Assembly: GCA_018650085.1 (NCBI GenBank)
Contig: JABIGQ010000016.1
Location: 1-39,093, forward strand
Direction: 5' to 3'
Source: Candidatus Magasanikiibacteriota bacterium
GTDB taxonomy: Bacteria; Patescibacteriota; Patescibacteriia; Magasanikbacterales; UBA922
DNA length: 39,093 bases
A program made the position numbers and the translations under genes. Each line of letters begins with the position of its first letter. Position 1 is the stretch's first letter. This document shows, piece by piece, positions 14 to 22,900 of this stretch. The notes under the pieces are model-generated. The model did no database searches. It saw only the letters and a list, made by a program, of their open reading frames with translations, and was not told where the DNA came from.

Positions 14-1378
14 ATGGCTATCACTCTATACAACTCACTTTCAAAACAAAAAGAAGCGTTTACCCCAATAAATCCAGATGAAGTAAGCCTCTATACTTGT
101 GGGCCTACTGTATATAATTATGCACACATAGGAAATTTACGCTCATATTTATTTGAAGATATTTTAAGACGAGTATTACGTTTCAATGGATACAACGTAA
201 AACATGTCATGAATATCACAGACGTTGGGCACCTAACAGATGATGCAGACGCAGGAGAAGATAAGATGGAAAAAGGAGCACGTCGTGAAGGAAAGACAGC
301 GTGGGAAATTGCTGAGTTTTATACAGATGCATTTAAACACGATATAGCCACACTAAACATTTTAGAGCCTAGCATCTGGGCAAAGGCGACAGATCATATA
401 GATGAGCAAATCGCAATGGTACAAACACTCATAGATAAAGAATATGCATACCAAACAAGTGATGGCATATATTTTGATACCACAAAAGTAAAAGACTATG
501 GAAAATTAGTCAATTTAAAAGATCAAGAATTACAAGCTGGCGTTCGTGTAGATATGGGAGAAAAAAAGAATGTCCATGATTTTGCATTATGGAAATTTAC
601 GAAAGATGGAGAAAAAAGACAAATGGAATGGGATGCTTTCTGGAAAAAAGGATTCCCTGGTTGGCATATAGAATGTTCTGCTATGAGTATGAAATATTTG
701 GGCGACCAGTTTGATATTCATTGCGGAGGTATTGACCATAAACCAGTACATCACACAAATGAAATAGCCCAGAGTGAAGCAAGCAGTGGAAAAAAACCAT
801 GGGTAAACTATTGGTTACATAATGAACATCTCTTACTAGGCAGCGGAAAAATGTCAAAATCTGGAGAACATTTTATTACCCTACAAACACTCTTAGAAAA
901 AGGCTACGATCCACTAGCGTATCGTTATTTTATTCTTCAAGCACATTATAGAAAACAACTCACCTTTACATGGGAGGCACTAAATGGTGCTGCACAGGGA
1001 TTAAAAAAATTACGTCAGCATGTTTCCCGCTTAGAAACAAGCACAAATATTGATCCACAAGTTCGTGAAGCATTTTCAGCTGCTATAAATGATGATTTAA
1101 ATACTGCAGAAGCATTGGCTGTGTTATGGAAAGCGCTAAAGGAAGGGACTATTGATTTAAATATGGTTATTGAATTTGATAAAGTCCTAGGCCTTAATTT
1201 ACATCAACCAAAAAAAGAAAAACCACTTCCAGATGATATTAAACAAATGCTTGAGGAAAGATCAAAATCAAGAGAAGAAAAAGACTGGGCAGAAAGTGAC
1301 CGCTTGCGTGATGAATTATTTGCTCGTGGATATATAGTAGAAGATACTGCAGATGGACAGAAGATTGTGGAGGTGTAA
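14..1378 (+). CDS. cysS: cysteinyl-tRNA synthetase
   Basis: Full-length ORF; YTCGPTVYNYAHIGNLRSYLFEDILRR, GWHIECSAMS and GSGKMSKS-type motifs. Confidence 0.98.
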   Translation: MAITLYNSLSKQKEAFTPINPDEVSLYTCGPTVYNYAHIGNLRSYLFEDILRRVLRFNGYNVKHVMNITDVGHLTDDADAGEDKMEKGARREGKTAWEIAEFYTDAFKHDIATLNILEPSIWAKATDHIDEQIAMVQTLIDKEYAYQTSDGIYFDTTKVKDYGKLVNLKDQELQAGVRVDMGEKKNVHDFALWKFTKDGEKRQMEWDAFWKKGFPGWHIECSAMSMKYLGDQFDIHCGGIDHKPVHHTNEIAQSEASSGKKPWVNYWLHNEHLLLGSGKMSKSGEHFITLQTLLEKGYDPLAYRYFILQAHYRKQLTFTWEALNGAAQGLKKLRQHVSRLETSTNIDPQVREAFSAAINDDLNTAEALAVLWKALKEGTIDLNMVIEFDKVLGLNLHQPKKEKPLPDDIKQMLEERSKSREEKDWAESDRLRDELFARGYIVEDTADGQKIVEV

Positions 1379-1386
1379 AATAATGT

Positions 1387-2004
1387 ATGAAACAAAAAAA
1401 TATTGTTACAAATACTATACATATTTTGACAAGCCTATTTACTTGGTTAATTATTTGGAATCATCTAAATTTTGAATTTGGTGAAAAAGTCATTTCATAT
1501 TTTTTCACTGATATAACAAACCATCCATATCTTTTACTCTTTCAATCATTTTATTTATTATTTATAACTAGTATAATTCTTTTTTTATGGTTTATCATTT
1601 TTAAAAAATTTGATTTTTTTTACTTAAACACAAAAAAAGTACTACTACTCTACATTATTCCTCTTATAATATTTCTTCTATCATTTGTATATACAAATGA
1701 AAAAACAATGTCTACTATACTACAAGAGACTTTTTCTTTTATTGTACTTTCATTTTCCCAAGATATTTTAACCTTTGGAATTTTACAAACATACTTGAGT
1801 AAGCTCATCAATACATATTATGCTACAATATTAACTGTGTGCATGTTTTTTATTGGACATATTGGTTTTTTCCCTTTAAATATTCTTCTATTATTCTATA
1901 TTACAGGATTTGTTTTATTTGGATATCTACGCTATAAAGATAAAAATATCTATAGACTAAATGTTATTCACACATCTTTTAATTTAATACGCCATTTTTT
2001 TTAA
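1387..2004 (+). CDS. multi-pass membrane protein, possibly a degenerate CPBP-family intramembrane protease
   Basis: Hydrophobic ORF; C-terminal FSQDILTFGILQTYL...FFIGH...VIHTSFNL resembles the CPBP motif order (EExxxR, FxxxH, HxxxN) but lacks the EE pair. Confidence 0.5.
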   Translation: MKQKNIVTNTIHILTSLFTWLIIWNHLNFEFGEKVISYFFTDITNHPYLLLFQSFYLLFITSIILFLWFIIFKKFDFFYLNTKKVLLLYIIPLIIFLLSFVYTNEKTMSTILQETFSFIVLSFSQDILTFGILQTYLSKLINTYYATILTVCMFFIGHIGFFPLNILLLFYITGFVLFGYLRYKDKNIYRLNVIHTSFNLIRHFF

Positions 2005-2045
2005 CAACATAAATAAATCTATTTAATTACTTATCTATACTTAAT

Positions 2046-2477
2046 ATGAAAAAACCATGCTTTTTCTGTGACATTCAAGAACAAAAAGATGATGACAAGC
2101 GCATTATGGAAAATGAACATTTTTTTGCACGCTATGACGATTTTGCTATTAGCCCAGGGCATTGTGAAATAATCCCAAAGGAACATCACCCATCATTCTT
2201 TGATTTAACACCAGAGCAACTTACTGCTTGTTATGCACTTATCAAAGAAACACAAGCAATCCTAGAAGAAGAATTTCATCCAGATGGATATAATATAGGG
2301 ATTAATGAAGGAGAAGCGGCAGGAAGAACCCAACACCATTTACACATACATATTATCCCCCGCTATGTAGGTGACGTAGAAAACCCCAGAGGTGGCGTAA
2401 GGCATATTATTCCTAAAAAAGCAGACTACATTCCTGAATTAAAAAAAATGAAAGGAAGAGAAAAATACGCTGATTAA
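2046..2477 (+). CDS. HIT family protein
   Basis: HHLHIHIIPR (HxHxH) histidine triad and N-terminal CFFCDI zinc-type motif. Confidence 0.95.
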   Translation: MKKPCFFCDIQEQKDDDKRIMENEHFFARYDDFAISPGHCEIIPKEHHPSFFDLTPEQLTACYALIKETQAILEEEFHPDGYNIGINEGEAAGRTQHHLHIHIIPRYVGDVENPRGGVRHIIPKKADYIPELKKMKGREKYAD

Positions 2478-2490
2478 TATAATAAATTAT

Positions 2491-2799
2491 ATGAATTGTA
2501 AAAAATGTGGTGCAGAATTAAATTCTAATCCGAATTTTTGTAATGTATGTGGAACACCTGCTAACATATTTCACACTGGCAATACAAACGATACAAAAAA
2601 AGACACCAACACAATATTAGATTTAACCGATATTAAAACTAAAACGTACATGAAGAGTTTTAAGAAACTTTTTTTTATATTTTTTATATTCATGTTCATA
2701 TCTAATTTTTTTGACAAGTCTTATACCTCCATTTTTAGTTTTATACTTTTTGGGCTTATAATATTTTCTTCATATAAAAAGAAAAATGAAAAAATCTAG
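2491..2799 (+). CDS. zinc-ribbon membrane protein
   Basis: MNCKKCGAELNSNPNFCNVCG zinc ribbon followed by two hydrophobic segments. Confidence 0.75.
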   Translation: MNCKKCGAELNSNPNFCNVCGTPANIFHTGNTNDTKKDTNTILDLTDIKTKTYMKSFKKLFFIFFIFMFISNFFDKSYTSIFSFILFGLIIFSSYKKKNEKI

Positions 2800-2866
2800 G
2801 GAATATTTTTGGCCCTTATATGGGTTAATGAATTTATTAATAATTTAACAATATAAATATTTTTTT

Positions 2867-3532
2867 ATGTCTGAAATATATATACCACCTATAGAAAAAG
2901 AACAACCCCCTTATTGGGAACACATACGAAAAGCTGAACAAGAACTTTTTCCCGAATTTGAGACAGAAGACTTTTGTATTGATTCACCTGAGACTAATAA
3001 CTTTTATTTTGCACCAAATTGGCATTTTAGAGAAGGGCTTATTACTGAGGAAGATATAGAACATTTTAAAAAAAATACAGAACAAAAAATATTAAGCATA
3101 GGATCTGGCCCTGCATATCTAGAACGTTTATTAGTGTCTCTAGACATCCCCAAAGAAAACATTACACTGTCCGATATAAATCCACAAGACTTACCTGACG
3201 ACTTTGAAAAAGAAACATTTAATATGCTAGAGAAATGGCCCACATTAAATAATGAAGAAAAATTTGATTTAATTATTTTTCCAGAAAATCCTTCTATTAA
3301 TGTCAATTTTTCAGGACAAAAAAGAATCCAGGCATTTGTTCATATTTTTAGTGAAGCTCTAAAAAATCTCAATCCAGATGAAACAATACGAATAACTGGT
3401 AATCCAAATAGTACAGATCTAACTAAAAAAGTAGAGAAAATGTTGATAAAAGCTGGTTATCCTGTTATTGTTCAAAATATTACTGAAAAACAAGATTTTG
3501 GTTCCTTAATTACTGTAAATTATGAAACATAA
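2867..3532 (+). CDS. class I SAM-dependent methyltransferase-like protein
   Basis: ILSIGSGPAYLERLL...ITLSDINPQ resembles motif I / acidic loop of Rossmann methyltransferases. Confidence 0.55.
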   Translation: MSEIYIPPIEKEQPPYWEHIRKAEQELFPEFETEDFCIDSPETNNFYFAPNWHFREGLITEEDIEHFKKNTEQKILSIGSGPAYLERLLVSLDIPKENITLSDINPQDLPDDFEKETFNMLEKWPTLNNEEKFDLIIFPENPSINVNFSGQKRIQAFVHIFSEALKNLNPDETIRITGNPNSTDLTKKVEKMLIKAGYPVIVQNITEKQDFGSLITVNYET

Positions 3533-3968
3533 ATTCATCATTGGGGTATTTGGAATTATTACCAATAAACAAAATCAAGTATTACTCATACATAGAAATG
3601 ATTATGATCTCTGGAATCTACCTGGCGGTGGACTTGAAACAGGAGAAAGTCCCTGGGATGGTGTAATACGTGAAATAAAAGAAGAAACAGGTTTTCATGT
3701 AGAAGTAACAAAACTTTTAGGGGTATATAGCAAATCAAATAAAGATGAAATTGTTTTTAGCTTTGAATGTAAAATTATTAGTGGGAAACGTACACTCAAT
3801 GAAGAAGCCAAAGATATACAATATTTCGCAATAAAAGATATCCCTAAAAACACATCACCAAATCAACGAAAACGGATACAGGATTATTTCAAAGATAAAC
3901 AGAATATCATACTACAAATAGATAAAGGCCCATCTTCTATACAGTTAATAAAAGAAGGGAAATTATAA
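3522..3968 (+). CDS. NUDIX hydrolase
   Basis: Nudix box GGGLETGESPWDGVIREIKEETGF; start overlaps the preceding ORF by 11 bp. Confidence 0.95.
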   Translation: MKHKFIIGVFGIITNKQNQVLLIHRNDYDLWNLPGGGLETGESPWDGVIREIKEETGFHVEVTKLLGVYSKSNKDEIVFSFECKIISGKRTLNEEAKDIQYFAIKDIPKNTSPNQRKRIQDYFKDKQNIILQIDKGPSSIQLIKEGKL

Positions 3969-3980
3969 TAAAAAAAGGGA

Positions 3981-4009
3981 TTGAACCAACGCAAAAAAAA
4001 TGCTAAAAT
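3981..4009 (+). promoter_or_regulatory. sigma70-type promoter for the 4039 gene
   Basis: TTGAAC (3981-3986), 17-nt spacer, TAAAAT (4004-4009). Confidence 0.55.
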
Positions 4010-4038
4010 AGGATAGAGAGAATTTACTAAAAAAATAC

Positions 4039-6531
4039 ATGCAACTCCCCTCTCTATTAAAATGCAAACGCATAGACGCACTCGATTTTCTTCGTGGAAG
4101 TGCTGTCTTTTTTATGTTGATTACCCATATCAATGCGGTATTTTTAAAAGACTATAACCTTTTCCTAGATAAACTCACATGGTTTGGCGCAACAATTTGT
4201 TTTAGTACATTTTTATTTTGTTTTGCGTTTATATATGGATTGAAAATATCTAAACATACACTCAATAAAAAAAGACAAATAAAAAGAGCCCTTCAAATAC
4301 TTGTCATCTACTATATCTCTGCATTTTTTGCTGCGTTCTTTTTATACGGACACTTACGCCCAGATGAAATCTTTGACATCGTTATACTAAAACACATTCC
4401 ACTATATACAGAATTTATACTTGCTTTTGTATTCTATATTATTCTCGTCATCCTCATAGAAAAACCATTAAAAAAGGCAATCAAATATCCTATCCCTCTC
4501 TTACTTTTTTCAATAGGAATATATCTACTTAGCTCTTTGCTTTATACCATAGAAACAAGTCCGCAATTACTTATTACTCTAAAAAATCTTTTTGTAGGGC
4601 ATGAGGCTCATCACACATTTGGTGTGCTATCTTACTTCCCTATTTTTATATTGGGATTTTTATCTGGAGCAATAAAAAAGAAAAAGTACAAAAAGAAATT
4701 TCTCATTTCTTTATTTGCTATTTCTACCATATCACTTATCTTTTTACGTGTAACTGGATTATCTGTATGGTATAGATGGCCACCGTCTACTCTCTTTCTT
4801 TTATACGGGATATCTTATGCTTTTTTCATTGGGATATCTTACTCATACATAAAGAAAATAACATACCTAAACAAATACTTCATCCACCTAGGAAAAAATG
4901 CATTACATATTTTTTTACTCAATATCATCGTTATCCTAGGGTTTTCATTTCTGGTAGATTATGAAAAATACCCTACACAGAGACTCCTTTTTATACACCT
5001 TGTATTTCTGATAATAATATCAGCGATTGTTATATCGTATGAAAAAGTAAAAAAAATACGCATTAGAAAACTAAATATACACTCTTTATTTCTATATATC
5101 ACAGCAATAATAAGTATAATATCTATATCTGCCTGTGGATACCTTTTTGTCGTAAAGGCAATGAAATCAGAAGTGCCAAACTTCCTAAACATTATACACA
5201 ATAAAAATGTATGTGAATCTTTTTCTTACCGACCGTCACAGCTTATAGATTTCTCTACCAATAAAACATGGCTTTTACTTGGAGATGAATTTACAGATAA
5301 AGAAAAAACACTTACCCTATCTGTAGACCTAATCAATACTATAAACTATACATCTATAAATAATCAAATACAAAACATCCAATTTGAAATAATTGATATA
5401 GATAATTCAAATAGCGTAATGAAAGGATACTTCCCTACATCTACAAAAGACAATATTTCTCTCAATTCTTTTACCACAGATATAGACATTAATGCTCTAC
5501 CTATAGGATCATATCATACAAAAATTACAGCATCATTTAAATGTGGAGATATAGCAGAAGAATACAAACAAGCATTTCATGTTTCTTATCCCTACTATCT
5601 TATATGGTCTATTGACTGGGAAGGTTATGATGTAAAAGAACAACATCTTCATGACATGGACGAAATTACAGAAAAACACCATGATATTCCTATGTCTCAT
5701 TTTCTTAACCCTCGTCTACTTACCACAGACACTATTTCAGAAGAAAGAAAAACGTATTTAAAAAATTGGCTACTAGATAAGCATTATCTCAATGGTGGAG
5801 AGGATAGTATTGATTTACACCTCCATATGTTTTTTGATCTAGCAGAAGATATGGGAATTACATTAGAAAAAGAAAAAACACTTCAGACAAATACTACAAC
5901 AATGACCACCACAACGCCACCAGAACAATGGGGATATTATCTAGAAGACGGATATGATGTCACGCTCTCCAATTTAGAGGATGGAGATATGGATAAAGCA
6001 CTGAAATTTTCTCTAGATATATTTGAAAAAAATGATTTCCCTAAACCAAAGGCCTTTCGGGCAGGTGGATGGTTTGCAGATACAGATACACTTCACATAC
6101 TTGAAGATAATGGCTTTCTCATAGATACTTCTGGAAGAAGTGCATATACATTTGGAACAAATAATCTTGAAGGCCCTTGGACATTATCTGAAACTGCGCA
6201 ACCATACAAACCAAATAGAAATAACCAAAATTCTAGAGAAGCACCACAGATGAATTTATGGGAATTCCCAAATAATGGTGGTGACTCATGGAAATATGAT
6301 ACACAGCAAATCAAAGAACGATTTGAAAAAAATTGGAAAAATGAGATAGGGTTACCACTGAAAGAAAAAAGAATTCTTATACTACTCAGTCACCCAGAAT
6401 GGTTTTACGTAGATAAACCAAAAATGAATGACTTGTTTAATTATACAGACACATTTCTTTATCTCAATGACAATGGTCCTGTATTGTATATTAACTTTGA
6501 TGATATTTATGATATATGGGAAATTAATTAA
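4039..6531 (+). CDS. fusion of N-terminal multi-TM acyltransferase (DUF1624/HGSNAT-like) and C-terminal polysaccharide-deacetylase-like domain
   Basis: RIDALDFLRGSAVFFMLITHINAVF start and ~10 TM segments, then a soluble region YYLIWSIDWEGYD...LHLHMFFDL...PKAFRAGGWFAD...ILILLSHPEWF typical of NodB-like folds. Confidence 0.7.
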   Translation: MQLPSLLKCKRIDALDFLRGSAVFFMLITHINAVFLKDYNLFLDKLTWFGATICFSTFLFCFAFIYGLKISKHTLNKKRQIKRALQILVIYYISAFFAAFFLYGHLRPDEIFDIVILKHIPLYTEFILAFVFYIILVILIEKPLKKAIKYPIPLLLFSIGIYLLSSLLYTIETSPQLLITLKNLFVGHEAHHTFGVLSYFPIFILGFLSGAIKKKKYKKKFLISLFAISTISLIFLRVTGLSVWYRWPPSTLFLLYGISYAFFIGISYSYIKKITYLNKYFIHLGKNALHIFLLNIIVILGFSFLVDYEKYPTQRLLFIHLVFLIIISAIVISYEKVKKIRIRKLNIHSLFLYITAIISIISISACGYLFVVKAMKSEVPNFLNIIHNKNVCESFSYRPSQLIDFSTNKTWLLLGDEFTDKEKTLTLSVDLINTINYTSINNQIQNIQFEIIDIDNSNSVMKGYFPTSTKDNISLNSFTTDIDINALPIGSYHTKITASFKCGDIAEEYKQAFHVSYPYYLIWSIDWEGYDVKEQHLHDMDEITEKHHDIPMSHFLNPRLLTTDTISEERKTYLKNWLLDKHYLNGGEDSIDLHLHMFFDLAEDMGITLEKEKTLQTNTTTMTTTTPPEQWGYYLEDGYDVTLSNLEDGDMDKALKFSLDIFEKNDFPKPKAFRAGGWFADTDTLHILEDNGFLIDTSGRSAYTFGTNNLEGPWTLSETAQPYKPNRNNQNSREAPQMNLWEFPNNGGDSWKYDTQQIKERFEKNWKNEIGLPLKEKRILILLSHPEWFYVDKPKMNDLFNYTDTFLYLNDNGPVLYINFDDIYDIWEIN

Positions 6532-6534
6532 TGT

Positions 6535-8487
6535 ATGAATAAAATTTTAAACATACTCACATTTGGTATTCACAATTTTAACACAAAAATGGCTATCCTT
6601 CTCGCCTTGATATTAATCATCATTGCCATATATATTATTCTGGCTATTTCTCATGTGTATATAAAAAAAATACATAAGAGACGACATATCTTCATGTGGC
6701 TTAGTGCAGGTTTAGGATGTGTTATTCTTCTATTTCTTTTATCTATCCTCATACCCAGACCATATGGGCATCTTGCTACTCCCACAGAAGATGGCCAACT
6801 CCTGCAAGCACATATGCCTATTGTGATTACGTTTGATAACCCGGTAGATGCACATAACCTGACAATGCATATCTCTCCAGAAATAAAAGGAGAATGGAAA
6901 TTTACAAATATACTTCCTATAAACACATCACTAAAACACCAAGCTATTTTTTATCCAGAAGAATCTTTTTATCCAGATACAAAAATTGTCGTATATATAG
7001 TTGGACTACAAAGTCTATTTCCTGGAAGTAAAGCCCATGAACAAGCTATTGAATTCTTTTCACCAAAAACACCAAACATTGCTGAAATTATCCCAGCCTC
7101 TGGACAAGAGAAAGTAGATATTGCAGATAATATAGAAATAATATTTGATAATCCTTCTGGAATGTTTGCTCATTGGCAATTTCATTTTGAACCAGAGATT
7201 CAATTTCAAATAAATAAAGTATCTGATAAAAAATATCTATTAGAACCAAAGGAGACACTTTTTCAAGATACACAGTATGCACTTTCTATTTCCAGATCAT
7301 TACAAACATATAATGTAAAAGATTTTTCTCCTATAAAAATAGATACTGAAGATGTATTTTCAATGACATTTCATACAGTCTCCCCTCCTCTTATAGAAGA
7401 ACATGCACCTCAGGGAGAAGAAGTCCGTTCCAATTCACAGATACGAATTGTTTTTGATGAGGATATGGATAAAGAAGATGTAGAAAAACATATTATCATA
7501 TCCCCTACGACCACAGGGACTATTTCTTGGGAAAATGAAAAAACATTTGTTTTTACTCCTACAAAAGAATTAAAAAAAGACACGAAATATATTATCACAG
7601 TAAAAAAAGACATGCTTACTGCCTATGGTGGAAAAACAGAAGAAGATGTTGAATTATATTTTAAAACATTGGGATCTGTCGCTTTAAAAAATACATTTCC
7701 TGCATCTAATTCATATGGGATACAACTAGATATTCCACATATTGCTATTACATTTAACCAAGGGGTAGACCATGATTCTGCACAATCATCTTTTTCTCTT
7801 TCGCCAAATGTCCCCGGTACTTTTTCTTGGGAAAATAACACCATGATCTATTCATTTACAAAAAAACTAGATTATTCAAAAAAATACCAAATACATCTTG
7901 ATAAAAACATAAAAAGTCTTTATGGCCAAGACTCTATAGAAGATTTTTCCTACTCATTTCTTACTAAAAACAAAGTCTTTACTCTAAAAATACCAATGTA
8001 TTATCAAGAAGAAGATTTCACCTGTAATCTCGCTGCAACAAGCATGATTTTAAAGTACAGAGGAATAACCCAAAATGAAGCAAATATTAAATCTTCTATT
8101 GGCATAGGAGGCGACCCAAATAAAAATTGGGTTAGCGAGTACGGTGTACATTGGGGGCCAATTGCACAATATATTTCACAATATAGAAAGGTAGCTATAA
8201 AAACTGGATGGAATATATCTGAACTAGCGCATGAAGTAGAACGTGGAAATCCTGTCATTATATGGTGGCATAATAATTATAGCCCCAGTGGTGCATTTAC
8301 ACTGCCCTCTGGAGTGATTGGCTATGAGGGAATGCACTCAGAAATAGTCAGTGGATTTGTAGGAAATGCAGATAATCCCATAACGCTTATTACCAATGAC
8401 CCCTGGCGTGGAATCAGACACTATTCTAGAAAAAATTTCCTTGCCACTTGGGGCTATCTTGGGTATACTGCTCTAGTGGTATATTAA
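6535..8487 (+). CDS. membrane-anchored protein with Big_5-type Ig-like repeats and C-terminal C39-like cysteine peptidase domain
   Basis: N-terminal TM; repeats PIVITFDNPVD / NIEIIFDNPSG / QIRIVFDEDMD / HIAITFNQGVD; C-terminus IPMYYQEEDFTCNLAATSMILKYRG. Confidence 0.8.
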   Translation: MNKILNILTFGIHNFNTKMAILLALILIIIAIYIILAISHVYIKKIHKRRHIFMWLSAGLGCVILLFLLSILIPRPYGHLATPTEDGQLLQAHMPIVITFDNPVDAHNLTMHISPEIKGEWKFTNILPINTSLKHQAIFYPEESFYPDTKIVVYIVGLQSLFPGSKAHEQAIEFFSPKTPNIAEIIPASGQEKVDIADNIEIIFDNPSGMFAHWQFHFEPEIQFQINKVSDKKYLLEPKETLFQDTQYALSISRSLQTYNVKDFSPIKIDTEDVFSMTFHTVSPPLIEEHAPQGEEVRSNSQIRIVFDEDMDKEDVEKHIIISPTTTGTISWENEKTFVFTPTKELKKDTKYIITVKKDMLTAYGGKTEEDVELYFKTLGSVALKNTFPASNSYGIQLDIPHIAITFNQGVDHDSAQSSFSLSPNVPGTFSWENNTMIYSFTKKLDYSKKYQIHLDKNIKSLYGQDSIEDFSYSFLTKNKVFTLKIPMYYQEEDFTCNLAATSMILKYRGITQNEANIKSSIGIGGDPNKNWVSEYGVHWGPIAQYISQYRKVAIKTGWNISELAHEVERGNPVIIWWHNNYSPSGAFTLPSGVIGYEGMHSEIVSGFVGNADNPITLITNDPWRGIRHYSRKNFLATWGYLGYTALVVY

Positions 8488-9917: not shown

Positions 9918-10526
9918 TTATATTTTCTCTGCCAAAATTCGTTCTGTCGTATCTACAATAGCTTGGGTCATGGGATCTATTTCAATATTTACCAACTCTC
10001 CTACTTTTTTATGACCTAAACTTGTGTTCTCTAAAGTTTCTGGAATAAGATGTACACGAAATGTGTCATCTTTAGGTTCTACCACAGTGAGACTCACGCC
10101 ATCTACAGAAATAAATCCTTTATGAATAATATATTTCATCCATTTATTTACCATAGAAAAAGTCATAGATACATCATGGCTGACCTTCTGTATATCTGTA
10201 ATTTCTGCTTTTGCTGAAACATGTCCAGACACCACATGCCCACCAATTTCATCTCCCATTTTTGCAGCACGCTCTACATTGACATGATCACCTACTTGCA
10301 AGCCACCCAATGTAGTGACACGTAATGATTCTTCCATAATATCAAAAGAAGCTTCACTATCATTCACAGCAATTACCGTCATACATACGCCATCTAGTGC
10401 TATACTTGACCCAGTAATAATCCCATCTAAAAAATCAGGCTCAAATAAAAGAGTAATTGTATTCATTCCCTCTTTCTTTTCTATTTTCTGCACAGGCACA
10501 TACCCTCGAACAATTCCAGTAAACAT
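9918..10526 (-). CDS. ribE: riboflavin synthase alpha subunit
   Basis: MFTGIVRG start and two lumazine-binding repeats (SSIALDGVCMTV, FISVDGVSLTVVE; GGHVVSGHV). Confidence 0.97.
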   Translation of the reverse strand: MFTGIVRGYVPVQKIEKKEGMNTITLLFEPDFLDGIITGSSIALDGVCMTVIAVNDSEASFDIMEESLRVTTLGGLQVGDHVNVERAAKMGDEIGGHVVSGHVSAKAEITDIQKVSHDVSMTFSMVNKWMKYIIHKGFISVDGVSLTVVEPKDDTFRVHLIPETLENTSLGHKKVGELVNIEIDPMTQAIVDTTERILAEKI

Positions 10527-10527
10527 A

Positions 10528-10872
10528 TTATATCTTAAAAAAATCTTTTACTTTTTCTATATCATTTCTAATTTTTTGTTTAATTTCTTTTGCTGAACTA
10601 TATGAAATCAAATCACTTACTTTTTTCTTTGGGTCAATACTAATCTTTTCATCATAAATAGTTTCCCCAAACCCTATAATAAATACTTCTACTTTATTAT
10701 GACGAGTATTGATAACAAGCGCCCCATAATGACTTACGTCTCTGACAAGAACCGTTGCCGCATACACTCCTTGTGCCAATCCGGTATCCTCTGGGGAAAT
10801 ATTAATATTTGCTGTGGGGAAACCAAGCGTTCGTCCTATTTTGTCACCAGAAATAACCCGTCCTTTTAGCAT
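10528..10872 (-). CDS. stand-alone riboflavin kinase domain (RibF C-terminal-like)
   Basis: GRVISGDKIGRTLGFPTANI...GVYAATVLV; no FAD synthetase (nucleotidyltransferase) domain. Confidence 0.88.
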   Translation of the reverse strand: MLKGRVISGDKIGRTLGFPTANINISPEDTGLAQGVYAATVLVRDVSHYGALVINTRHNKVEVFIIGFGETIYDEKISIDPKKKVSDLISYSSAKEIKQKIRNDIEKVKDFFKI

Positions 10873-10876
10873 AATA

Positions 10877-12130
10877 TTATTCTAATAATTCAATAGCTTT
10901 TTTCAACCCTAGATCTATAATATACTCTTTGTGATCTTCTGGAAGATCTTCATTTATTTCAATCATTTCTTCTAATACAATATCTGGTGTAATTCCTACT
11001 CCATCTATAGCCCGCGCATCTGGTGTTAACCATTTTGCAATAGTGATTTTAATCGCAGAACCATCTGGAAGGATTTCAAATTCCTGTACAGATCCTTTTC
11101 CAAATGTTTGTGTCCCAACTACTGTTGCTTTTCCATAGTCTTGCAACGCACCGGCTACAATTTCTGATCCAGAAGCAGTTCCTCCATCTACCAATACAAT
11201 TGTGGGCATATCTACAAAACGTTTCGTTCCTTTTCTCATATAGGATTCTCTATTTCCATCTTTGAACTCTTCCAATACCACTGCTCCATCTTCTACCCAT
11301 TCACTCGCCACAATAACAGAAGTTTCTAAAAATCCACCTGGGTTACTTCTTAAGTCCAATATAAGACCCCGAGGCTCTTCTATCATGATATTTCCAACTG
11401 CTTCATAAAATTCATCTAATGTATCTTCATTGAAATGACTAATGCGAAGATATGCAAGATTTGATTCTTTCATTTCCCAATTTATTGTAGGAATATTTAT
11501 AGTATCACGAGTAATAGTAATATCCAAGATTCCTTCTTCTGACTCTCGTGATACTCCTAGAATTACATCTGTCCCCTGTGGGCCACGAATACGTGTTACT
11601 GCTTCTTCTACAGTGATTCCATAAGTCGCTTCACTATCTATAGTCATTATTTTATCATTTGTTTTTATTCCGGCGAGCATTGCTGGAGACTTTTCCAATG
11701 GAGCAATAACCACAAGTTGATTATCTTTTAGCCCAATTTGCGCTCCAATTCCTTCAAATTCTCCACTAAGACTTTCTGTAAATTCTTTTGCGTCAGTGGG
11801 CGGAAAGTATACTGAATATGGGTCATCCAATCCAGCGACAAGTCCCTCCATGGCACCATAAAATAATGCAGTATCATCTACTGGTTGATTTACATGTTTA
11901 TCTTTTACCATGTCCCAGACTTCCCAAAATTGATCAAATTCTACTTCTTCTGAACGTGTATTTCCATAAAAATTTACAACCTTTGCAATTTCTACTTGTC
12001 CTTGTGCATTTACTAACTCACTATGCAGTCCATTTGCTGACCCAAATAAATATCCACCACCAAAAGCAAACACTGCCATTAACAATGAAAAAAATAAAAT
12101 ACTTTTTCTTTTTTGTGGGACTATTGTCAT
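10877..12130 (-). CDS. S41 family C-terminal processing protease (CtpA-like)
   Basis: N-terminal TM, PDZ, DPYSVYF, LDLRSNPGG, DGGTASGSEIVAGAL, TFGKGSVQ motifs. Confidence 0.95.
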   Translation of the reverse strand: MTIVPQKRKSILFFSLLMAVFAFGGGYLFGSANGLHSELVNAQGQVEIAKVVNFYGNTRSEEVEFDQFWEVWDMVKDKHVNQPVDDTALFYGAMEGLVAGLDDPYSVYFPPTDAKEFTESLSGEFEGIGAQIGLKDNQLVVIAPLEKSPAMLAGIKTNDKIMTIDSEATYGITVEEAVTRIRGPQGTDVILGVSRESEEGILDITITRDTINIPTINWEMKESNLAYLRISHFNEDTLDEFYEAVGNIMIEEPRGLILDLRSNPGGFLETSVIVASEWVEDGAVVLEEFKDGNRESYMRKGTKRFVDMPTIVLVDGGTASGSEIVAGALQDYGKATVVGTQTFGKGSVQEFEILPDGSAIKITIAKWLTPDARAIDGVGITPDIVLEEMIEINEDLPEDHKEYIIDLGLKKAIELLE

Positions 12131-12144
12131 AAAATATATAGTAA

Positions 12145-13458
12145 TTATGATTCAATACGTTGAATATCAACGCCAACTGCTTGCAAGTACTCTACAACAT
12201 GCTCATACCCACGCTCAATAGTATAACAATTTCGTAATACAGATTCTCCTTTTGCTGCAATCATTGCAATGAGTACTGCCATAGCTGGTCGAATAGCAGA
12301 TGGACACATGAGTTCATTTGGGCAGAGTGTTGTTTTTCCTTCTACAAATACACGATGCGGATCTACCAAGAAAATCTTTGCTCCTAGTTTTTGTAATTCT
12401 AAATAATAAATTGCTCTATTTTCATATACCCAATCGTGTACGAGTGTTCTTCCTTTTGCTTGGGTAAGTATTGGAATAAAGAATGGTAAATTATCAATAT
12501 TTAATCCTGGGAATGGTCGCCCATAAATCTTATCTGGAAGAGCCGTCAATGCAGACGGTGTTAATACTATATCTACGACAGTAAAATTACCACTTGCAGA
12601 TTTTCTTTTTTTCTTTAGTTCAAATTTTTGTCCCATGACTGCTAATTTTTCTAATTCTAGTTCAAGAAAATCGAGTGGACATTCTTTTACTGTTATAGCA
12701 GATTTCGTAGTAATTCCTAGGGATAACCATGTCATAGCTACTATAGGATCTGGCATGATATGGTACTCTACAGATTTTAATTTTTTTACTCCTGTAATAG
12801 TCAAAGTGGTTGTTCCAATTCCTGTTATCTTTGCTCCTGCGGCCTGAAGAAAATAACAAAGATCTTGCACCATATAGTTAGATGAAGCAAATTTTATTAC
12901 TGTTTTTCCAGATGCAAGCACTGCTGCCATGATTGCATTTTCTGTAGGGGTGTCTCCTGATTCATACATAACCAAATCTGGGACTGAAGTAATATTTTTA
13001 TTTTTTACTTCATAATACCGTTGCTTTGATTCTACGGATACCCCAAATTTATTTAATGCATATAAATGAGGGCGTACTGTTCTTTCTCCCAATTTACATC
13101 CACCACTCTTATATAATTTATATTTCTTTACTTGTGTAGATAATGCCCCAAGTAACATAAGGGATGAACGAACTTTCTGTGCGGCTGCTTCGTCCATGTT
13201 TGCCAGTCGTAATTGTTTTGAGCTATCTATTTCCAATATGTTATTTGCTTGCCAACGGTGAGATACACCAATACTTGCAAATAATTCAAGCATGCGATCT
13301 ACTTCTTGGATTTGTGGCATATTATGTAGAGTGATTTTTCCTCTTACCATGACACTAGCACAAAGTATCCCCATGGCAGCATTTTTTGCAGGGCTTACAA
13401 AGATTTTCCCTGATAATTTTTTACCTCCATTTATGATAAATTTAGCCATATTATGCAA
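12145..13458 (-). CDS. murA: UDP-N-acetylglucosamine 1-carboxyvinyltransferase
   Basis: EPSP synthase-like fold; INGGKKLSGKIFVSPAKNAAMGIL...RPAMAVLIAMIAAKGESVLRNCYTIERGYEHV; start likely at MAKFIINGG. Confidence 0.92.
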   Translation of the reverse strand: MHNMAKFIINGGKKLSGKIFVSPAKNAAMGILCASVMVRGKITLHNMPQIQEVDRMLELFASIGVSHRWQANNILEIDSSKQLRLANMDEAAAQKVRSSLMLLGALSTQVKKYKLYKSGGCKLGERTVRPHLYALNKFGVSVESKQRYYEVKNKNITSVPDLVMYESGDTPTENAIMAAVLASGKTVIKFASSNYMVQDLCYFLQAAGAKITGIGTTTLTITGVKKLKSVEYHIMPDPIVAMTWLSLGITTKSAITVKECPLDFLELELEKLAVMGQKFELKKKRKSASGNFTVVDIVLTPSALTALPDKIYGRPFPGLNIDNLPFFIPILTQAKGRTLVHDWVYENRAIYYLELQKLGAKIFLVDPHRVFVEGKTTLCPNELMCPSAIRPAMAVLIAMIAAKGESVLRNCYTIERGYEHVVEYLQAVGVDIQRIES

Positions 13459-14840: not shown

Positions 14841-14879
14841 AATTAAAAAACAAGCTTGGGAAGAGCTTGTTTTTTAATT
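14841..14879. terminator. bidirectional rho-independent terminator
   Basis: Perfect 16-bp stem AATTAAAAAACAAGCT / AGCTTGTTTTTTAATT between convergent genes. Confidence 0.9.
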
Positions 14880-14881
14880 AA

Positions 14882-17800
14882 TTATTTTAAATATCCCCGT
14901 ATACATTCAACCATAGACATATATCCATTATCTTTCAATTTCATAATAAAATTATCATGAAAATTTCCTTGTAAATTTAAGCCTGGGTCTATCAATTTGT
15001 ATTTTTTTTGAAATTTATCTAATGAAATTATTGCTCCCTTTTCTGTTGCTGCATCTAAAAATGAAGTAAAAGCCTCTAACATATTTCCTCTATGTGCTAA
15101 AATCCAATTTTCTACTCCAATTCCACCAAAACCTCCATGTTCTACCTTTTTATATGCATGCCCAGCTTTTAAAATACGTTTTGTAAGAACAATATTTGCG
15201 ATCACTTGTTCATACTCATTTTGACCAATATTTTCTTGTATCCATTCCAATCTATCTTTAAGTGCATTGTCTGAAGAATACACTTCTAATTCAGATTTCA
15301 ATACAAAACCAATATCTATATCTAAATCTTTTTGTCCAAATGCAAATACATCTTTCAATCTCAATTGAAAGATACCACCAGATGAATTAGAATCATTATC
15401 TATCCCAGGAAAACTTTCTCGAAGATTTGGGACAATCCCATCATATATTTTTAAAGCATCCAGATTATCTACCCGAACAGTATAATCAAAATCAGCTACT
15501 CCAGTAGGATCAAATGTCCCACGGTCAGTTGACCCTATATTATATATTTGTGCACCTAGAAGTCCAGTATCAAAATCTCCTCTTATTTGTATTCCATTTT
15601 TTTCTAAGACTTTCATTATTTCCGTCTGTATTTGTATATTTAATAGTTCAGTTTTTTCTGTTTGTTCTTTCATTTCTTGTACCAGATCTTTTATATTTTC
15701 TGCATGTCTCGTATTATTTATTGATCCTTCAAATTCAAAAGCATCCCCATTATACTCATCCACACCTTTATAAAAATATCTATATTCTTCATACATTTCT
15801 GGTGTAAAAATTAAATTTCCTTTTTCATCCACCACTGGGATATAAAAATTATTTTGTGCTATTTCTATAAAGACATCCTCTCTTTTCCTATCATCTATAC
15901 TATTACTAAACACCATACAATCTATCTCTGTACTAGGAAAACCTGTCCGAATACCATAATGTTCCTTACCCCAAACACCTGTATGAAATATTTCATATTT
16001 ATCTTTATCATATTTTCTTTCTTTCCTATCTACACCACGAAAACTAGTCGTGTCTTGAAATTGCCCCCTATCTTTTATTATAAATGCAACACCACCAAAT
16101 GAAAAAAGTCCACGACTATCTAATACCTCTGCAAAACTTTTATCATTAACCCCAGATTCTTCTTGAACCCTAAATACGTCTGTATCAAATGGAGTCATAT
16201 CTGAATCTGAGCTACTTCCAAGAAATTCTTTTGAAACAGATCCATTTTGTAAAATATTAGAAACATATTCTGCATTTACACTTTTTAATATATCATGCAA
16301 CTCTATATTAAATTTACCATTTTTAATATGTTTGGCAATTTCAATACCACGATTATGTGATTTCTCTCTTTCACCATCCATTTTTTCAAGTATTTCATCC
16401 ATTGTTTTATATCCAAGTGGACGTAAATACATTTCCACAATTCTCTCTGAAACACTTTGACCTTCTTTTACTCCTAAATTTTCTTTTAAATCTGTATATC
16501 TTTTTTCTAAATCAGATAAACTTAATTCTGGATCTACTTCACTTTCTTTAAATTCTCCTAATTGTGAATTATCAAAAAGAACTTTAAGTCTACGTAAGAA
16601 AAAACTTAATTCTTCTTGTTCTTTCTCTGGCAATTCCTCTATTCCTTTATTTTTCATTTTATTTAAAACTTCTTCTCCACTAGCAAATGCTTCTATATAT
16701 GATCGCAAATTTCTATTTCCTGAATTTATATGTACTTTTAATAGATCATTATATATTGTATATTTTCTTATTAGTTTACTTGCCTCGGTTAAACGTGGAC
16801 TAAGTTTATTATTATTCTTTGTTATTTTTTTTATATTATCATTTGGGTATAATATCTCAAAGATTTTATACACTTTTCCAGCCAATGGAATATTATTTTT
16901 TATAAATATATCTTCAACTTTTTCATATTCTTCTTCTGGATTTTCTAAAAATATTATTTGCTCTAATAATTGAAATCTTATTCTTTGTATTTCTTGTGAT
17001 GGACTTTGAGATATCTTATCATATATTGCTATGAAATCTTTTAATTCTTCACTAGCTAAAAGAATTTCTTTTATATAATTATCCCTTAGCATAAAATCTA
17101 TATTTTTTATCTTTTTATTTTTTACAATAGAGTCAAAATAATCTATTACAATCACATTTAATCCACCTATTTTTAAATCTAATTCCATTATTTTTAAAAA
17201 ATTAAATGCAGTAGCCAAATAACCGCTATTTAACTCTTTTCTAAATCTTTTTATTGCTATTTCTTTTATCTCATCATCTATCTCTAAAATATTTTTATTT
17301 AACATGCTTACTATATCAGGAGAATATCCTTTTTTTAAAAGTTCAATAAACGTTCTTCTAAAAATTTCTTTTATATTTTCATTAATTTCTACACCCCATA
17401 TTTCTATATTTAGTAAATAATGCATCACAGATGAAAAATCAAGTTCTTCTAAAAATTCAATTATAATTTTTTCAAATTTTTCTATTTTTGCAAAACTTGA
17501 TATTACTGCAAATCCTCCATTATCTGACTCTGTTTTTAACATTTTTTTTACTCCACTTTCTATCTCTTCATCTATTTGAATGTTAAATTTTTCTATTTCT
17601 AATAATATTCCTATTTTATATATATTTTTTTTCTTTATTTCTTTTTTTATTCTAATATTTGCGAGACTACACATTTCTTCATCAATAAGATGATCTAGTT
17701 CTTCCAAGGCTTTCAACTTATCTACGATACTACTATCTTCATTTCTATAAAATCTACTAAAATCTCTTTTTTGTAAAATATTTTTCACCTTATATATATC

Positions 17801-20053
17801 TCCGTCTTCTAATTCTTTTGGAATTTGCAAACCCACCATTTTTTTTATTTCCTCTACTGTTATATTAAATTCTTTCATTTTTAATATATTTACTATAATC
17901 TGCACACCATCTTTCCACAACGACAACCCATTCAAAATAGCTTCCATAGCAAAACTTTCTATTTCAGAGTCTACCCCAACTCCAAGTTCTTCATCATTAA
18001 AAAATCTAGGAATATCTTCAGTATACCCTTTCAACAAACTCCTCCTTATTGCTACCTTAACAGCTGTCTTCATTTCTTCATCCATTTCAATATCACTCCC
18101 ATACTTTTCCCTTATATTAAAAAAATTATGCACACAAGTTACTATATCTTCATTTTTTAAAATAATAATCATTTTTCTTTTCGTTGCATCATTTATTTCT
18201 TCTTCAGTAAATTCAAATTTATGTTCCTCAACATATTTTGAATTTAAAAAATATTTATCACCAGATCCAAATGAGTTTAAAAAATCTTTTCTTCTTAACT
18301 TTTCCACTTCTTCTAGAGAAAAAACATCTTCTATATCTTCTCTATATATATCAAAAAGTGCACCTTCTGTATCATATCCCTTTTCTATAGATTCTAAAAC
18401 TATTTTTCTACTAAAATGAGAAACCAAATCAGATTTCCCAATTTTTTTAAGAAAACCGACAATATATCCAAGTGCTAAAGTATAATGAGCAAAATACTCT
18501 ATTAATAACTCCTGCAGACTTTCATCCACTTCTATTTTTCCTAATTTTATAAAATTTGCAATTTCACTTACTTCTGCATAAACAGATTTATTCTTTTCAT
18601 TCAAACCTCCAGACAAATAATCATTTAAAATTTTTCTTAACTCCCCATTTTTCCCAAAATCAAATTTTTTAATAAAACTATTAAAAGTCTCATTTGAAAT
18701 ATTTATAGGAAATAATTCTACCTTAAACTCCTTTAAAATCAAATCGTTTATGCCATCTGACAATGACATTTTAAATTCAAACATCATCCTTAAAATTCTA
18801 TCAAAGTCAATATGATCTGAATTATCAATAATATATTTTTCTATATCATTGACTGAAAAATCTAAATCATCTATTTCTAAAATAGTTCCAACATAATAAA
18901 ACTCCCCCCTTTCTAACGCATGTATGGACATTCTATTTATAATATCATTCATTTTTGTGTCTATAGAAAGTCCAGTAGCTTTAATATTCTTAATTATATG
19001 TGCTATTCCACTAAGAGACTTTTTAGATTCTTCTTCTTTTATAATATCAATAGCGATGCCATAAATATCCACATCTACTTCAATATTCAACTGTTCTATC
19101 CCTATTATCCTATCAACTAAATCAGACTTACAAGAAATATGTCTCATTTCATCTTTTATTTTATTTATAGCAATATTTCTCATTTTGTCATCCACAACAA
19201 TTCCTAACTTTTCAATAGAAAATATTTCTTCTAAATCAGTGATATCACTACCTTCTAATTTTTCTATTACAATCTCTGTAATATTTTTTTGTATTTCTAC
19301 ATCTCCCACAAAATTAAAAGCTGAGATATCAAAGACACCTGAAACAAAATCATAATTTCTTTTGTTTCTTAACATTTCTAATACTTCTTCTTTTACCAAT
19401 GACACCACTTCTGCATCTATTACACTATCTATTATATCAGTTTTCAAGGCCTCTTTTATTCTACTAAGATCTTTATTATCAATTGCATCTATCATTTTAT
19501 TTTTCCCAGCCACTATGATTTCATCATCACTCAACCACTCTCTCAAAAGATCTAAATTCCACTTAGTTAACTCTACAGAACCGTATTTGTTTTCTCCACT
19601 CATTAATATACTTCTATACTTTTCTTCCTCCTCTAAAATAAGATTTTCCAATTCAAACTCATCTTTTCCATCTAACTCAACACCTTCATCTTTCATACGT
19701 TTCGTTAAAAACGCTCTTTTTTCTTTTTCTATTTTTGCTTCTTCACGCTTTTCTTTCCAACCAGCCAATACTCCTCTAGGATTTTTAATAGCTTTTGTAA
19801 TTTGAGAAAGAGTCCCTCTTCTCAATTCTTCTACTTCTTTTTTTAAACCTTCTAATTCTTTTATTGCTTCCCCATTTTCTTCTGTACCAAAGATATCTGT
19901 TAAATCATCATTTAAAATCTCCCACCAAGCATCCGCATGATTTGCTATTTCTGCACTTACATTTTCAGGATCTACAGTTTCTCTACCTTTTATCTCGATA
20001 GGTTTATCTTCTATACTACTATTTTCTAATTTTTCTCCTTTTGTTCTTGTCAT
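14882..20053 (-). CDS. 1723-aa protein: degenerate helical repeats, unassigned domain, C-terminal nucleotidyltransferase-superfamily-like domain
   Basis: Single long ORF; IGSTDRGTFDPTGVADFDYTVRVD fits hG[GS]x(9-13)DhDh; KDLDIDIGFVL candidate third acid; GGFGGIGVENWIL...G near the C-terminus. Confidence 0.8.
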   Translation of the reverse strand: MTRTKGEKLENSSIEDKPIEIKGRETVDPENVSAEIANHADAWWEILNDDLTDIFGTEENGEAIKELEGLKKEVEELRRGTLSQITKAIKNPRGVLAGWKEKREEAKIEKEKRAFLTKRMKDEGVELDGKDEFELENLILEEEEKYRSILMSGENKYGSVELTKWNLDLLREWLSDDEIIVAGKNKMIDAIDNKDLSRIKEALKTDIIDSVIDAEVVSLVKEEVLEMLRNKRNYDFVSGVFDISAFNFVGDVEIQKNITEIVIEKLEGSDITDLEEIFSIEKLGIVVDDKMRNIAINKIKDEMRHISCKSDLVDRIIGIEQLNIEVDVDIYGIAIDIIKEEESKKSLSGIAHIIKNIKATGLSIDTKMNDIINRMSIHALERGEFYYVGTILEIDDLDFSVNDIEKYIIDNSDHIDFDRILRMMFEFKMSLSDGINDLILKEFKVELFPINISNETFNSFIKKFDFGKNGELRKILNDYLSGGLNEKNKSVYAEVSEIANFIKLGKIEVDESLQELLIEYFAHYTLALGYIVGFLKKIGKSDLVSHFSRKIVLESIEKGYDTEGALFDIYREDIEDVFSLEEVEKLRRKDFLNSFGSGDKYFLNSKYVEEHKFEFTEEEINDATKRKMIIILKNEDIVTCVHNFFNIREKYGSDIEMDEEMKTAVKVAIRRSLLKGYTEDIPRFFNDEELGVGVDSEIESFAMEAILNGLSLWKDGVQIIVNILKMKEFNITVEEIKKMVGLQIPKELEDGDIYKVKNILQKRDFSRFYRNEDSSIVDKLKALEELDHLIDEEMCSLANIRIKKEIKKKNIYKIGILLEIEKFNIQIDEEIESGVKKMLKTESDNGGFAVISSFAKIEKFEKIIIEFLEELDFSSVMHYLLNIEIWGVEINENIKEIFRRTFIELLKKGYSPDIVSMLNKNILEIDDEIKEIAIKRFRKELNSGYLATAFNFLKIMELDLKIGGLNVIVIDYFDSIVKNKKIKNIDFMLRDNYIKEILLASEELKDFIAIYDKISQSPSQEIQRIRFQLLEQIIFLENPEEEYEKVEDIFIKNNIPLAGKVYKIFEILYPNDNIKKITKNNNKLSPRLTEASKLIRKYTIYNDLLKVHINSGNRNLRSYIEAFASGEEVLNKMKNKGIEELPEKEQEELSFFLRRLKVLFDNSQLGEFKESEVDPELSLSDLEKRYTDLKENLGVKEGQSVSERIVEMYLRPLGYKTMDEILEKMDGEREKSHNRGIEIAKHIKNGKFNIELHDILKSVNAEYVSNILQNGSVSKEFLGSSSDSDMTPFDTDVFRVQEESGVNDKSFAEVLDSRGLFSFGGVAFIIKDRGQFQDTTSFRGVDRKERKYDKDKYEIFHTGVWGKEHYGIRTGFPSTEIDCMVFSNSIDDRKREDVFIEIAQNNFYIPVVDEKGNLIFTPEMYEEYRYFYKGVDEYNGDAFEFEGSINNTRHAENIKDLVQEMKEQTEKTELLNIQIQTEIMKVLEKNGIQIRGDFDTGLLGAQIYNIGSTDRGTFDPTGVADFDYTVRVDNLDALKIYDGIVPNLRESFPGIDNDSNSSGGIFQLRLKDVFAFGQKDLDIDIGFVLKSELEVYSSDNALKDRLEWIQENIGQNEYEQVIANIVLTKRILKAGHAYKKVEHGGFGGIGVENWILAHRGNMLEAFTSFLDAATEKGAIISLDKFQKKYKLIDPGLNLQGNFHDNFIMKLKDNGYMSMVECIRGYLK

Positions 20054-20362: not shown

Positions 20363-21676
20363 ATGGAAAAAGAAAAAAATTACAAAAGACTTTATAATGA
20401 CCTTTTGAAAAACAGCCCCCATGGGATTGCGATTTATGAACCAATTAAAGATGGAAAAAATTTCATATTTATTGAATTTAATAAATCTGCAGAAAAAATG
20501 GATAAAACTTTAAAAAAGAATCTAATTGGGAAAAAAGTAACTGATGTTTTTCCTGGAGTAAAAAAAATGGGGCTTTTTGATATCTTGAAAAAAGTTTATA
20601 AAACTGGAGAACCTGAATTTTTTCCTACTGCTTTTTATGAAGACAAAAAATTACACGGATGGAGACAAAATCATGTTCATAAAACATTTGATAACAACAT
20701 TATCTCTATTTATATAGATAAGACAAAAGAAAAAAAAGATGAACAAGAAATAAAAGAAATTGAAGAAAGGCATTCACTCGCTTTACAAGGAACCTCTGAC
20801 GGTCTTTGGGATTGGGATATTATAAATAATAAAACTTATTTTTCCGATAAATGGAAAAGCATGATAGGATATAATCCTGATGAAATCAAAGATGTCTTTT
20901 CTGAATGGCAAAATCGTCTACACCCAAAAGACAAAGAAAAATGCATGCAATATATACAAAAATATATAAATAGTTCAGGAAACATGCATTTTGAAATTGA
21001 ATTTGATATGATTCATAAAGATGGAAATTCTATTCCCATTTTGGCACGAGCATTTATGATAAAGGATAAAAAAGGAAAGCCTATCCGTATGGTAGGAACT
21101 CATATTGATCTTACCGAACGAAAAAAATATGAAGAAAAGCTAAAAATACAATCCGAAAAATTAAAACAAAATGAATTATTTTTAAATAATATTATAACAC
21201 AAAGTCCTTTTAGTACTTGGATTTCCGATGACAAAGGAACCACTATCAAAATTAATACTGCATGTAAAAAATTGTTTGGAGTAAAAGATGATTATGCAAT
21301 TATTGGAAAGTATAATATTTTTAAAGATGATATTCTTATAGAAAAAAAATTAATCCCTCTTGTAAAAACTGTATTTGAAGAAGGAAAAATTATAAATTTC
21401 ACCATTGACTATCATTTTGATGAAGTAAAGCACGTAAATATACCTGAGGCTACAGCAACTCTTCTGGACGTAACTATTTTTCCAATAAAAAATAAAGATG
21501 GAGAAATTACAAACGCAGTAGTACAACACAAAGATATTACTGCTTCTAAAGCTTGGGAAGAAAAAGATAAAAAACACCAACAAACAGTAGAACAGATGAA
21601 TACATCTATTCAGGAAAAAGAGTCAGAAATAATGAAATTGAGGCGTACTATAAAACAATTGGAAGAGAAAAAATAA
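20363..21676 (+). CDS. multi-PAS domain protein without recognised output domain
   Basis: PAS/PAC signatures: GTSDGLWDWDIINNKTYFSDKWKSMIGY, KGKPIRMVGTHIDLTERKKYEE, AVVQHKDITASKAWEE; ends in a coiled coil. Confidence 0.85.
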   Translation: MEKEKNYKRLYNDLLKNSPHGIAIYEPIKDGKNFIFIEFNKSAEKMDKTLKKNLIGKKVTDVFPGVKKMGLFDILKKVYKTGEPEFFPTAFYEDKKLHGWRQNHVHKTFDNNIISIYIDKTKEKKDEQEIKEIEERHSLALQGTSDGLWDWDIINNKTYFSDKWKSMIGYNPDEIKDVFSEWQNRLHPKDKEKCMQYIQKYINSSGNMHFEIEFDMIHKDGNSIPILARAFMIKDKKGKPIRMVGTHIDLTERKKYEEKLKIQSEKLKQNELFLNNIITQSPFSTWISDDKGTTIKINTACKKLFGVKDDYAIIGKYNIFKDDILIEKKLIPLVKTVFEEGKIINFTIDYHFDEVKHVNIPEATATLLDVTIFPIKNKDGEITNAVVQHKDITASKAWEEKDKKHQQTVEQMNTSIQEKESEIMKLRRTIKQLEEKK

Positions 21677-22075: not shown

Positions 22076-22900
22076 TTATTTTAATTTTTTAATAATATTA
22101 CTCTGTAAAAGTGATTTCATTTGAATAATAGCTATTTCATTTAATCTTTTAAGTCTTTCTTTTTGTTCTAATTTTTGCCTTATAAATTCTGCATTAAGGC
22201 TTTCAAGTCCTGCCAAGCAAACAAGTTGTGAGACATCAGCATAATCCCGCATATTTCCATCTTTATCTTCATTTTCTTCTTTCCACTCTTTGGCGGTTTC
22301 TCCAAAAAGAGCAATATTTAAAACATCAGCTTCATTTGCATAAATATTCCCCATTTGAACTTTTGAAATGTTTTGAGGAATTAAATATTCTTTTACTGCA
22401 TCTGTATGCACAATGTAATTTACTTTCGCCAAAGTTCGTTTGGCATCCCAGCCTAAAAATTTCTTTTCTGTTTCTTCTTTTTTTAGTCGTTGAAATTCTT
22501 TAATTAGGTAGAGTTTAAATTCTGGAGAAATCCAACTTGCAAACTCAAAAGCAATGTCAGTATGAGCAAAAGTACCTCCATATCGTCCAGACTTCGAACG
22601 AATACCAATGGCGTTCGTAGTTTCTATCCATTTCTTAGGAGTAAGAATAAAGGAATTTGAACCACTTTCATTTTTAAAGGTATCGAATTCGACACGGTTA
22701 AAGTTTTGATTATTCATTTTTTCCCATATCCCCATAAACTCAACAGTATATCGAGTTTTCATCCAGTTCTGAATGGCAAATCGAGGATCTTCTGAGTTTT
22801 TAAATTTCGCGATATCTGTCAAGGAAATATAATCTTCGTCATTTTGTTGAAATAAAACGATTTTTTTTCCTTTGACGGTAATGGCATTATTTATTTTCAT
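22076..22900 (-). CDS. KilA-N domain protein
   Basis: MKINNAITVKGKKIVLFQQNDEDYISLTDIAKFKNSEDPRFAIQNWM...GRYGGTFAHTDIAFEFASWISPEFKLYLIKEFQRLK. Confidence 0.9.
   Translation of the reverse strand: MKINNAITVKGKKIVLFQQNDEDYISLTDIAKFKNSEDPRFAIQNWMKTRYTVEFMGIWEKMNNQNFNRVEFDTFKNESGSNSFILTPKKWIETTNAIGIRSKSGRYGGTFAHTDIAFEFASWISPEFKLYLIKEFQRLKKEETEKKFLGWDAKRTLAKVNYIVHTDAVKEYLIPQNISKVQMGNIYANEADVLNIALFGETAKEWKEENEDKDGNMRDYADVSQLVCLAGLESLNAEFIRQKLEQKERLKRLNEIAIIQMKSLLQSNIIKKLK

Follow-up and report, generated by a model that had tools for sequence, protein, structure and literature searches.

The window, a stretch of 39,093 nucleotides, is one contig of a 1.0-Mb, 64-contig Patescibacteria genome. Its longest open reading frame encodes the protein P0001, in agreement with the earlier note, which had called this the largest gene in the window and had described a helical-repeat array, an unassigned globular region and a nucleotidyltransferase-like (NTase) C-terminus. 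The features of the gene, with domains as predicted, are:

14882..20053, reverse strand: whole gene of P0001, 1723 aa, ATG start
17056..19606, reverse strand: helical-repeat arm, residues ~150-1000, degenerate 37-aa repeats
16304..17025, reverse strand: conserved all-helical connector, residues ~1010-1250, with SPSQEI...IEDIFIKNN motifs
15764..16303, reverse strand: predicted ART-superfamily fold, DarT/KptA-like, residues ~1251-1430, with K1257 at the ART His position and E1376 at the presumed ART Glu
15599..15709, reverse strand: long helix leading from the ART fold to the NTase head, residues ~1449-1485
14885..15616, reverse strand: predicted class I CCA/PAP-type Pol-beta NTase head, residues ~1480-1723
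14841..14879, no strand assigned: palindromic terminator-like hairpin with a 17-bp stem, between the convergent PEGA gene and the giant gene

The giant gene has a GC content of 27.4% (window, 32.3%) and is transcribed divergently from a PAS-only gene (20363-21676, forward strand), as had been described. To its left, gene order is shared with G001, a genome of the same genus, as far as the PEGA gene, which ends at 14840; synteny breaks right before the giant gene, and the G001 contig carries other genes thereafter. The location in an accessory segment, also put forward earlier, is thus supported on the left side of the gene. The strong hairpin at 14841-14879 lies close to the breakpoint. A KilA-N domain gene (22076-22900, reverse strand) lies close to the accessory segment, as do a cupin gene and the PAS-only gene, an arrangement not seen at the other loci of the family. 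The genome separately encodes an ordinary class II CCA enzyme with a housekeeping role, and P0001 was therefore rejected as the genome's CCA enzyme. Streamlined genomes of ~1 Mb rarely devote 5 kb to one accessory gene.

Single-sequence searches of P0001 against Pfam, NCBIfam, PHROGs and PDB sequences gave chance-level matches only, and PDB profile searches with 4, 28 and 32 family sequences gave no significant match. Among 95 relatives, three proteins clearly homologous over the last ~740 residues and two sharing the middle domain only were found; a search through 84,980 species genomes brought about 30 further loci, spread over many Patescibacteria lineages and gut Bacilli and Clostridia. 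In all, about 40 relatives were found, in Patescibacteria (about 2% of genomes) and gut Bacilli/Clostridia. The survey of the architecture across Patescibacteria, suggested beforehand, placed the gene in 8 of the 380 sampled genomes of the phylum and in 7/86 of the order, and the nearest gene-bearing relatives include MAGs labelled Magasanikbacteria. In a tree of 28 cores, the Patescibacteria stood apart from the Bacillota, bar one Saccharibacteria sequence inside the Bacillota side, whose placement is unsure owing to its long branch. No conserved neighbour was detected in about 25 loci beyond antisense-ORF artefacts. Adjoining genes differ between loci and are mostly housekeeping (among them CTP synthase, RF-1, YebC, a class II tRNA synthetase, GARS, a penicillin-binding protein, a recombinase and a histidine kinase), and no defence island was present among the loci examined. 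CTP synthase beside L012 and L014 was considered as a linked gene and rejected as housekeeping. Homologues were found in no phages, plasmids or viral contigs (IMG/VR), which argues against a direct mobile-element link, and Foldseek against BFVD returned NTase-like or scattered matches only, with the architecture absent.

The C-terminal part was modelled with AF2 for residues 985-1723 from a 28-sequence alignment (pLDDT 84, pTM 0.85), residues 985-1250 being helical. The best Foldseek match of this model was the archaeal class I CCA-adding enzyme 1r89 (E=1.4e-5, match probability 1.00 for class I CCA/PAP), followed by poly(A) polymerases (3e-5), Cid1, GLD-2, TUT7, CdnB and OAS1. The Pol-beta fold check recommended in the earlier note thus returned an NTase fold, and the signature GSTDRGTF...DFDYTV is real: G1507, S1508, D1521, D1523 and D1580, including the metal-binding Asp residues, are invariant in all 32-33 alignable NTase heads. 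The motif GGxGGIGVENW (1640-1650) is near-universal in these heads, with one substitution, at 1640, among the checked columns. Pfam NTP_transf_2 matched weakly in 8/28 members (best 0.0015), and tRNA_NucTransf2 (PF09249) gave no hmmscan match in P0001 or elsewhere in its genome. On the strength of the model, the head of P0001 is assigned as a class I CCA/PAP-type NTase with a predicted complete two-metal active site. It shares with the archaeal class I CCA-adding enzyme (1r89, 1uet) and eukaryotic poly(A) polymerase the Pol-beta core, the GS...DxD...D residues and the head fold (Foldseek E 1.4e-5 to 6e-5), but differs from them in lacking a PF09249 sequence match and in sitting behind an ART fold and an arm of ~1000 aa, in a genome that owns a class II CCA enzyme.

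The globular region in front of the head, which had been left without assignment, is present and can be assigned to the ART superfamily (residues about 1250-1430), since the predicted fold is consistent through the Foldseek list and an independent profile test points the same way. Its AF2 model, built from 32 sequences, reached pLDDT 88 and pTM 0.86; leading Foldseek matches were DarT1 (8baq, E 0.0099, prob 0.91), DarT2 and KptA/Tpt1, followed by diphtheria and cholix toxins and PARPs, with E-values that are singly weak (best 0.0099). For the profile test a nine-sequence KptA alignment was compared by hhalign with the His-bearing members (E=2.7e-4, probability 41.5%) and with all members (E 0.0054, probability 6.7%); both probabilities are low, and each E-value refers to a single pairwise comparison. 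The alignment is exact at LYHGT / LxHGT and the following helix ending in ...I..xG, thus covering strand 1 and helix 1 only. The Pfam DarT model (PF14487) matched neither P0001 nor any other protein of its genome.

Position K1257 was placed at the ART His because His-bearing and Lys-bearing domains are homologous (E 1.4e-30) and the CCA-headed member L060 keeps the His. This position is occupied by His in 5/39 members, L060 and L010 among them, and by Lys in 34/39, P0001 included. E1376 falls within the strand presumed to carry the ART Glu, with Glu in 32/39. Replacement of His by Lys makes ART activity uncertain in P0001 and most members. R1235, D1285 and D1292 are kept in 39/39 and look peculiar to the giant family. 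With DarT (DNA ADP-ribosyltransferase toxin) and KptA/Tpt1 (RNA 2'-phosphotransferase) the family has in common the ART fold, the strand-1 H-G motif in some members and the Glu in a (S/T)(S/T)E(I) strand in most; it departs from both in the Lys for His of most members and in R1235 and D1285/D1292, from DarT in that no DarG/macro partner was seen, and from KptA in that no counterpart of its N-terminal lobe (LRH, QGHS motifs of the KptA alignment) was seen.

The degenerate repeat array described earlier is real: residues 150-985 are most self-similar at a lag of 37 (z=4.7 relative to shuffles), and five ungapped pairs of 36 residues score 50-57, compared with a maximum of 45 in 5 shuffles. The helical nature of the arm is suggested by sequence. 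By BLASTP, the P0001 arm had similarity to none of the other arms in the compared set. In every protein pair compared, the arm was less conserved than the core, with values of 32% for the arm and 62-69% for the core in L013/L015, and of 27% and 48-63% in L017/L024; pairs with L027 were left out, as its arm was taken from the shorter second copy. The arm diverges much faster than the core; relaxed constraint may account for this. At one locus (L009:2923-4998 and 4862-8047, forward strand), the family gene runs in two frames that change over inside the arm, at an A6-T8 homopolymer, a split with which sequencing error, decay and phase variation are equally compatible.

While the ART core is constant, the C-terminal head varies. 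The CCA/PAP-type NTase head is commonest; DUF294-type NTase heads occur in L010, L011 and L049 (L011 above the Pfam cut-off), HD-like heads with HDxGKP in L032 and L033, and L061 has an ART core without a head. The arm of L007, which has a CCA-type head, is homologous to that of L010, which has a DUF294 head (E=1e-33), so arms and heads have recombined. Such swapping of heads on a fixed core is a pattern typical of effectors in conflict or RNA-end processing. Neither the ART nor the NTase fold is new; the combination of the two in this order, with long arms and exchangeable heads, is apparently undescribed. The earlier suggestion to that effect stands, as the architecture was found in none of the family libraries (Pfam, NCBIfam, PDB sequence families) or open-access papers searched, a partial coverage that leaves room for an earlier description. 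An assignment is thereby gained for very long proteins that match no family model.

Nucleotide addition to RNA 3' ends is the reaction of CCA-adding enzymes and poly(A) polymerases; DarT and KptA use NAD+ to act on nucleic acids. Among toxins, the MenT NTases lengthen the acceptor end of tRNA, and tRNA tailing can stop growth (PMC11541572, PMC10435456). For these reasons a cytosolic single-gene effector of a modular family, performing arm-directed modification of RNA ends, is the favoured reading of P0001, though we would put it at somewhat less than an even chance. The arm would recognise, or be triggered by, a target, possibly foreign or stress-derived; the NTase would then add nucleotides to an RNA 3' end, most likely of tRNA or a similar structured RNA, and tailing would alter translation or mark the RNA. 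In H-G members the ART fold could provide a second, NAD-dependent modifying site; in Lys-bearing members such as P0001 it could be a modified or regulatory nucleotide-binding site. Counted for this reading were the NTase and ART fold matches, the conserved catalytic residues of the NTase, the sparse distribution, the synteny break, the separate housekeeping CCA enzyme, the head swaps and the fast arms; counted against it were the modest TM-scores of the fold matches (0.36-0.39 by target), the unrelated and mostly housekeeping neighbours, the lack of homologues among the phages, plasmids and viral contigs searched, the possible relaxed constraint on the arm, and the finding that no antitoxin-like partner for a potentially toxic enzyme is adjacent in about 25 loci. 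MenT and AbiEii toxins are likewise Pol-beta NTases, but of another subfamily, and MenT is small and paired with an antitoxin gene, whereas P0001 is without a partner gene, no MenAT-type neighbour being conserved in the same loci. Of the functions proposed in the earlier note, the RNA- or nucleotide-modifying head would follow from the predicted fold and the intact active-site residues, and a recognition role of the arm is indirectly suggested by fast divergence and head swapping.

More tentatively, the family may consist of undescribed one-gene intracellular machines of conflict or RNA surveillance, in which a diversifying arm senses the target and unleashes an ART-NTase (or ART-HD) core that edits RNA ends, heads being exchanged between arms by recombination. 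If true, this would be a new effector layout for bacterial conflict or RNA biology, with an ART and exchangeable nucleotide-acting heads on a fast-evolving arm, and the clear active-site residues make the ART-NTase family directly testable.

The main rival to the effector reading, itself unlikely, is RNA-end repair, in which a KptA-like ART would take off a 2'-phosphate and the CCA-like NTase rebuild the 3' end, with cyclic phosphates cleared by HD heads and the damaged tRNA held by the arm. It owes its rank to the joint resemblance of these three domains to an end-healing set, and the alignment of the ART profile with KptA and a sub-significant match of the HD head to the HD region of the Aquifex A-adding enzyme (E 0.13-0.35) agree with it; however, 34 of the 39 ART domains are without the His, the KptA lobe is not seen, no ligase or RNase was present among neighbours at the loci examined, and so rapid an evolution of the arm would be unusual in a housekeeping repair factor. 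Both modification of proteins and second-messenger synthesis were judged less likely than the effector or repair readings. In the first of these, the NTase and/or ART would transfer AMP/UMP or ADP-ribose onto a protein that the arm holds. Many ARTs modify proteins and long repeat arms commonly bind them; the type B heads are DUF294-type NTases, which we take to be similar to GlnD-type domains. Against this, nucleic acids are the substrates of the enzymes nearest in fold, CCA/PAP and DarT/KptA; protein modification is rated quite improbable.

Hardly better, and if anything lower, are the prospects of a nucleotide second-messenger synthase, with a CD-NTase/OAS-like cyclase head and the arm as its sensor. 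CBASS CD-NTases and OAS do have a related NTase fold: CdnB and OAS1 are among the lower Foldseek matches, and PADLOC oligonucleotide-cyclase models weakly match about 10/28 members (best 5e-5). They are nevertheless further in fold from the P0001 head than CCA/PAP (2.9e-3 for CdnB against 1.4e-5), P0001 itself has no PADLOC match, and its neighbours are unrelated, with no effector gene nearby at this or the other loci examined. Patescibacteria are largely host-dependent, and ART and NTase folds are common as effector domains, which would suit an episymbiont effector delivered into the host cell. This reading is nonetheless the least probable, since a signal peptide is not apparent by eye in P0001, a gene this large carries no recognisable export signal, no consistent secretion neighbour occurs at the loci examined, and the family is present in gut Bacilli and Clostridia too.

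L026 (6169-11565, forward strand) has about 154 residues beyond the NTase head. At L039 (715-1533, forward strand), a 273-aa open reading frame contains the GGxGGIGxENWIL C-terminal part of the head only, behind a different N-terminus, and lies near a second, contig-cut family gene. One gut Bacilli contig (L027) bears two family copies, at 182-4825 and 9963-12992 (forward strand), the second with a much shorter arm. The family member at L058 adjoins a second giant protein of 1367 aa (1144-5244, reverse strand) with a mid-protein Ser/Thr protein-kinase domain (Pfam E=1.5e-21), possibly another long arm-type protein.
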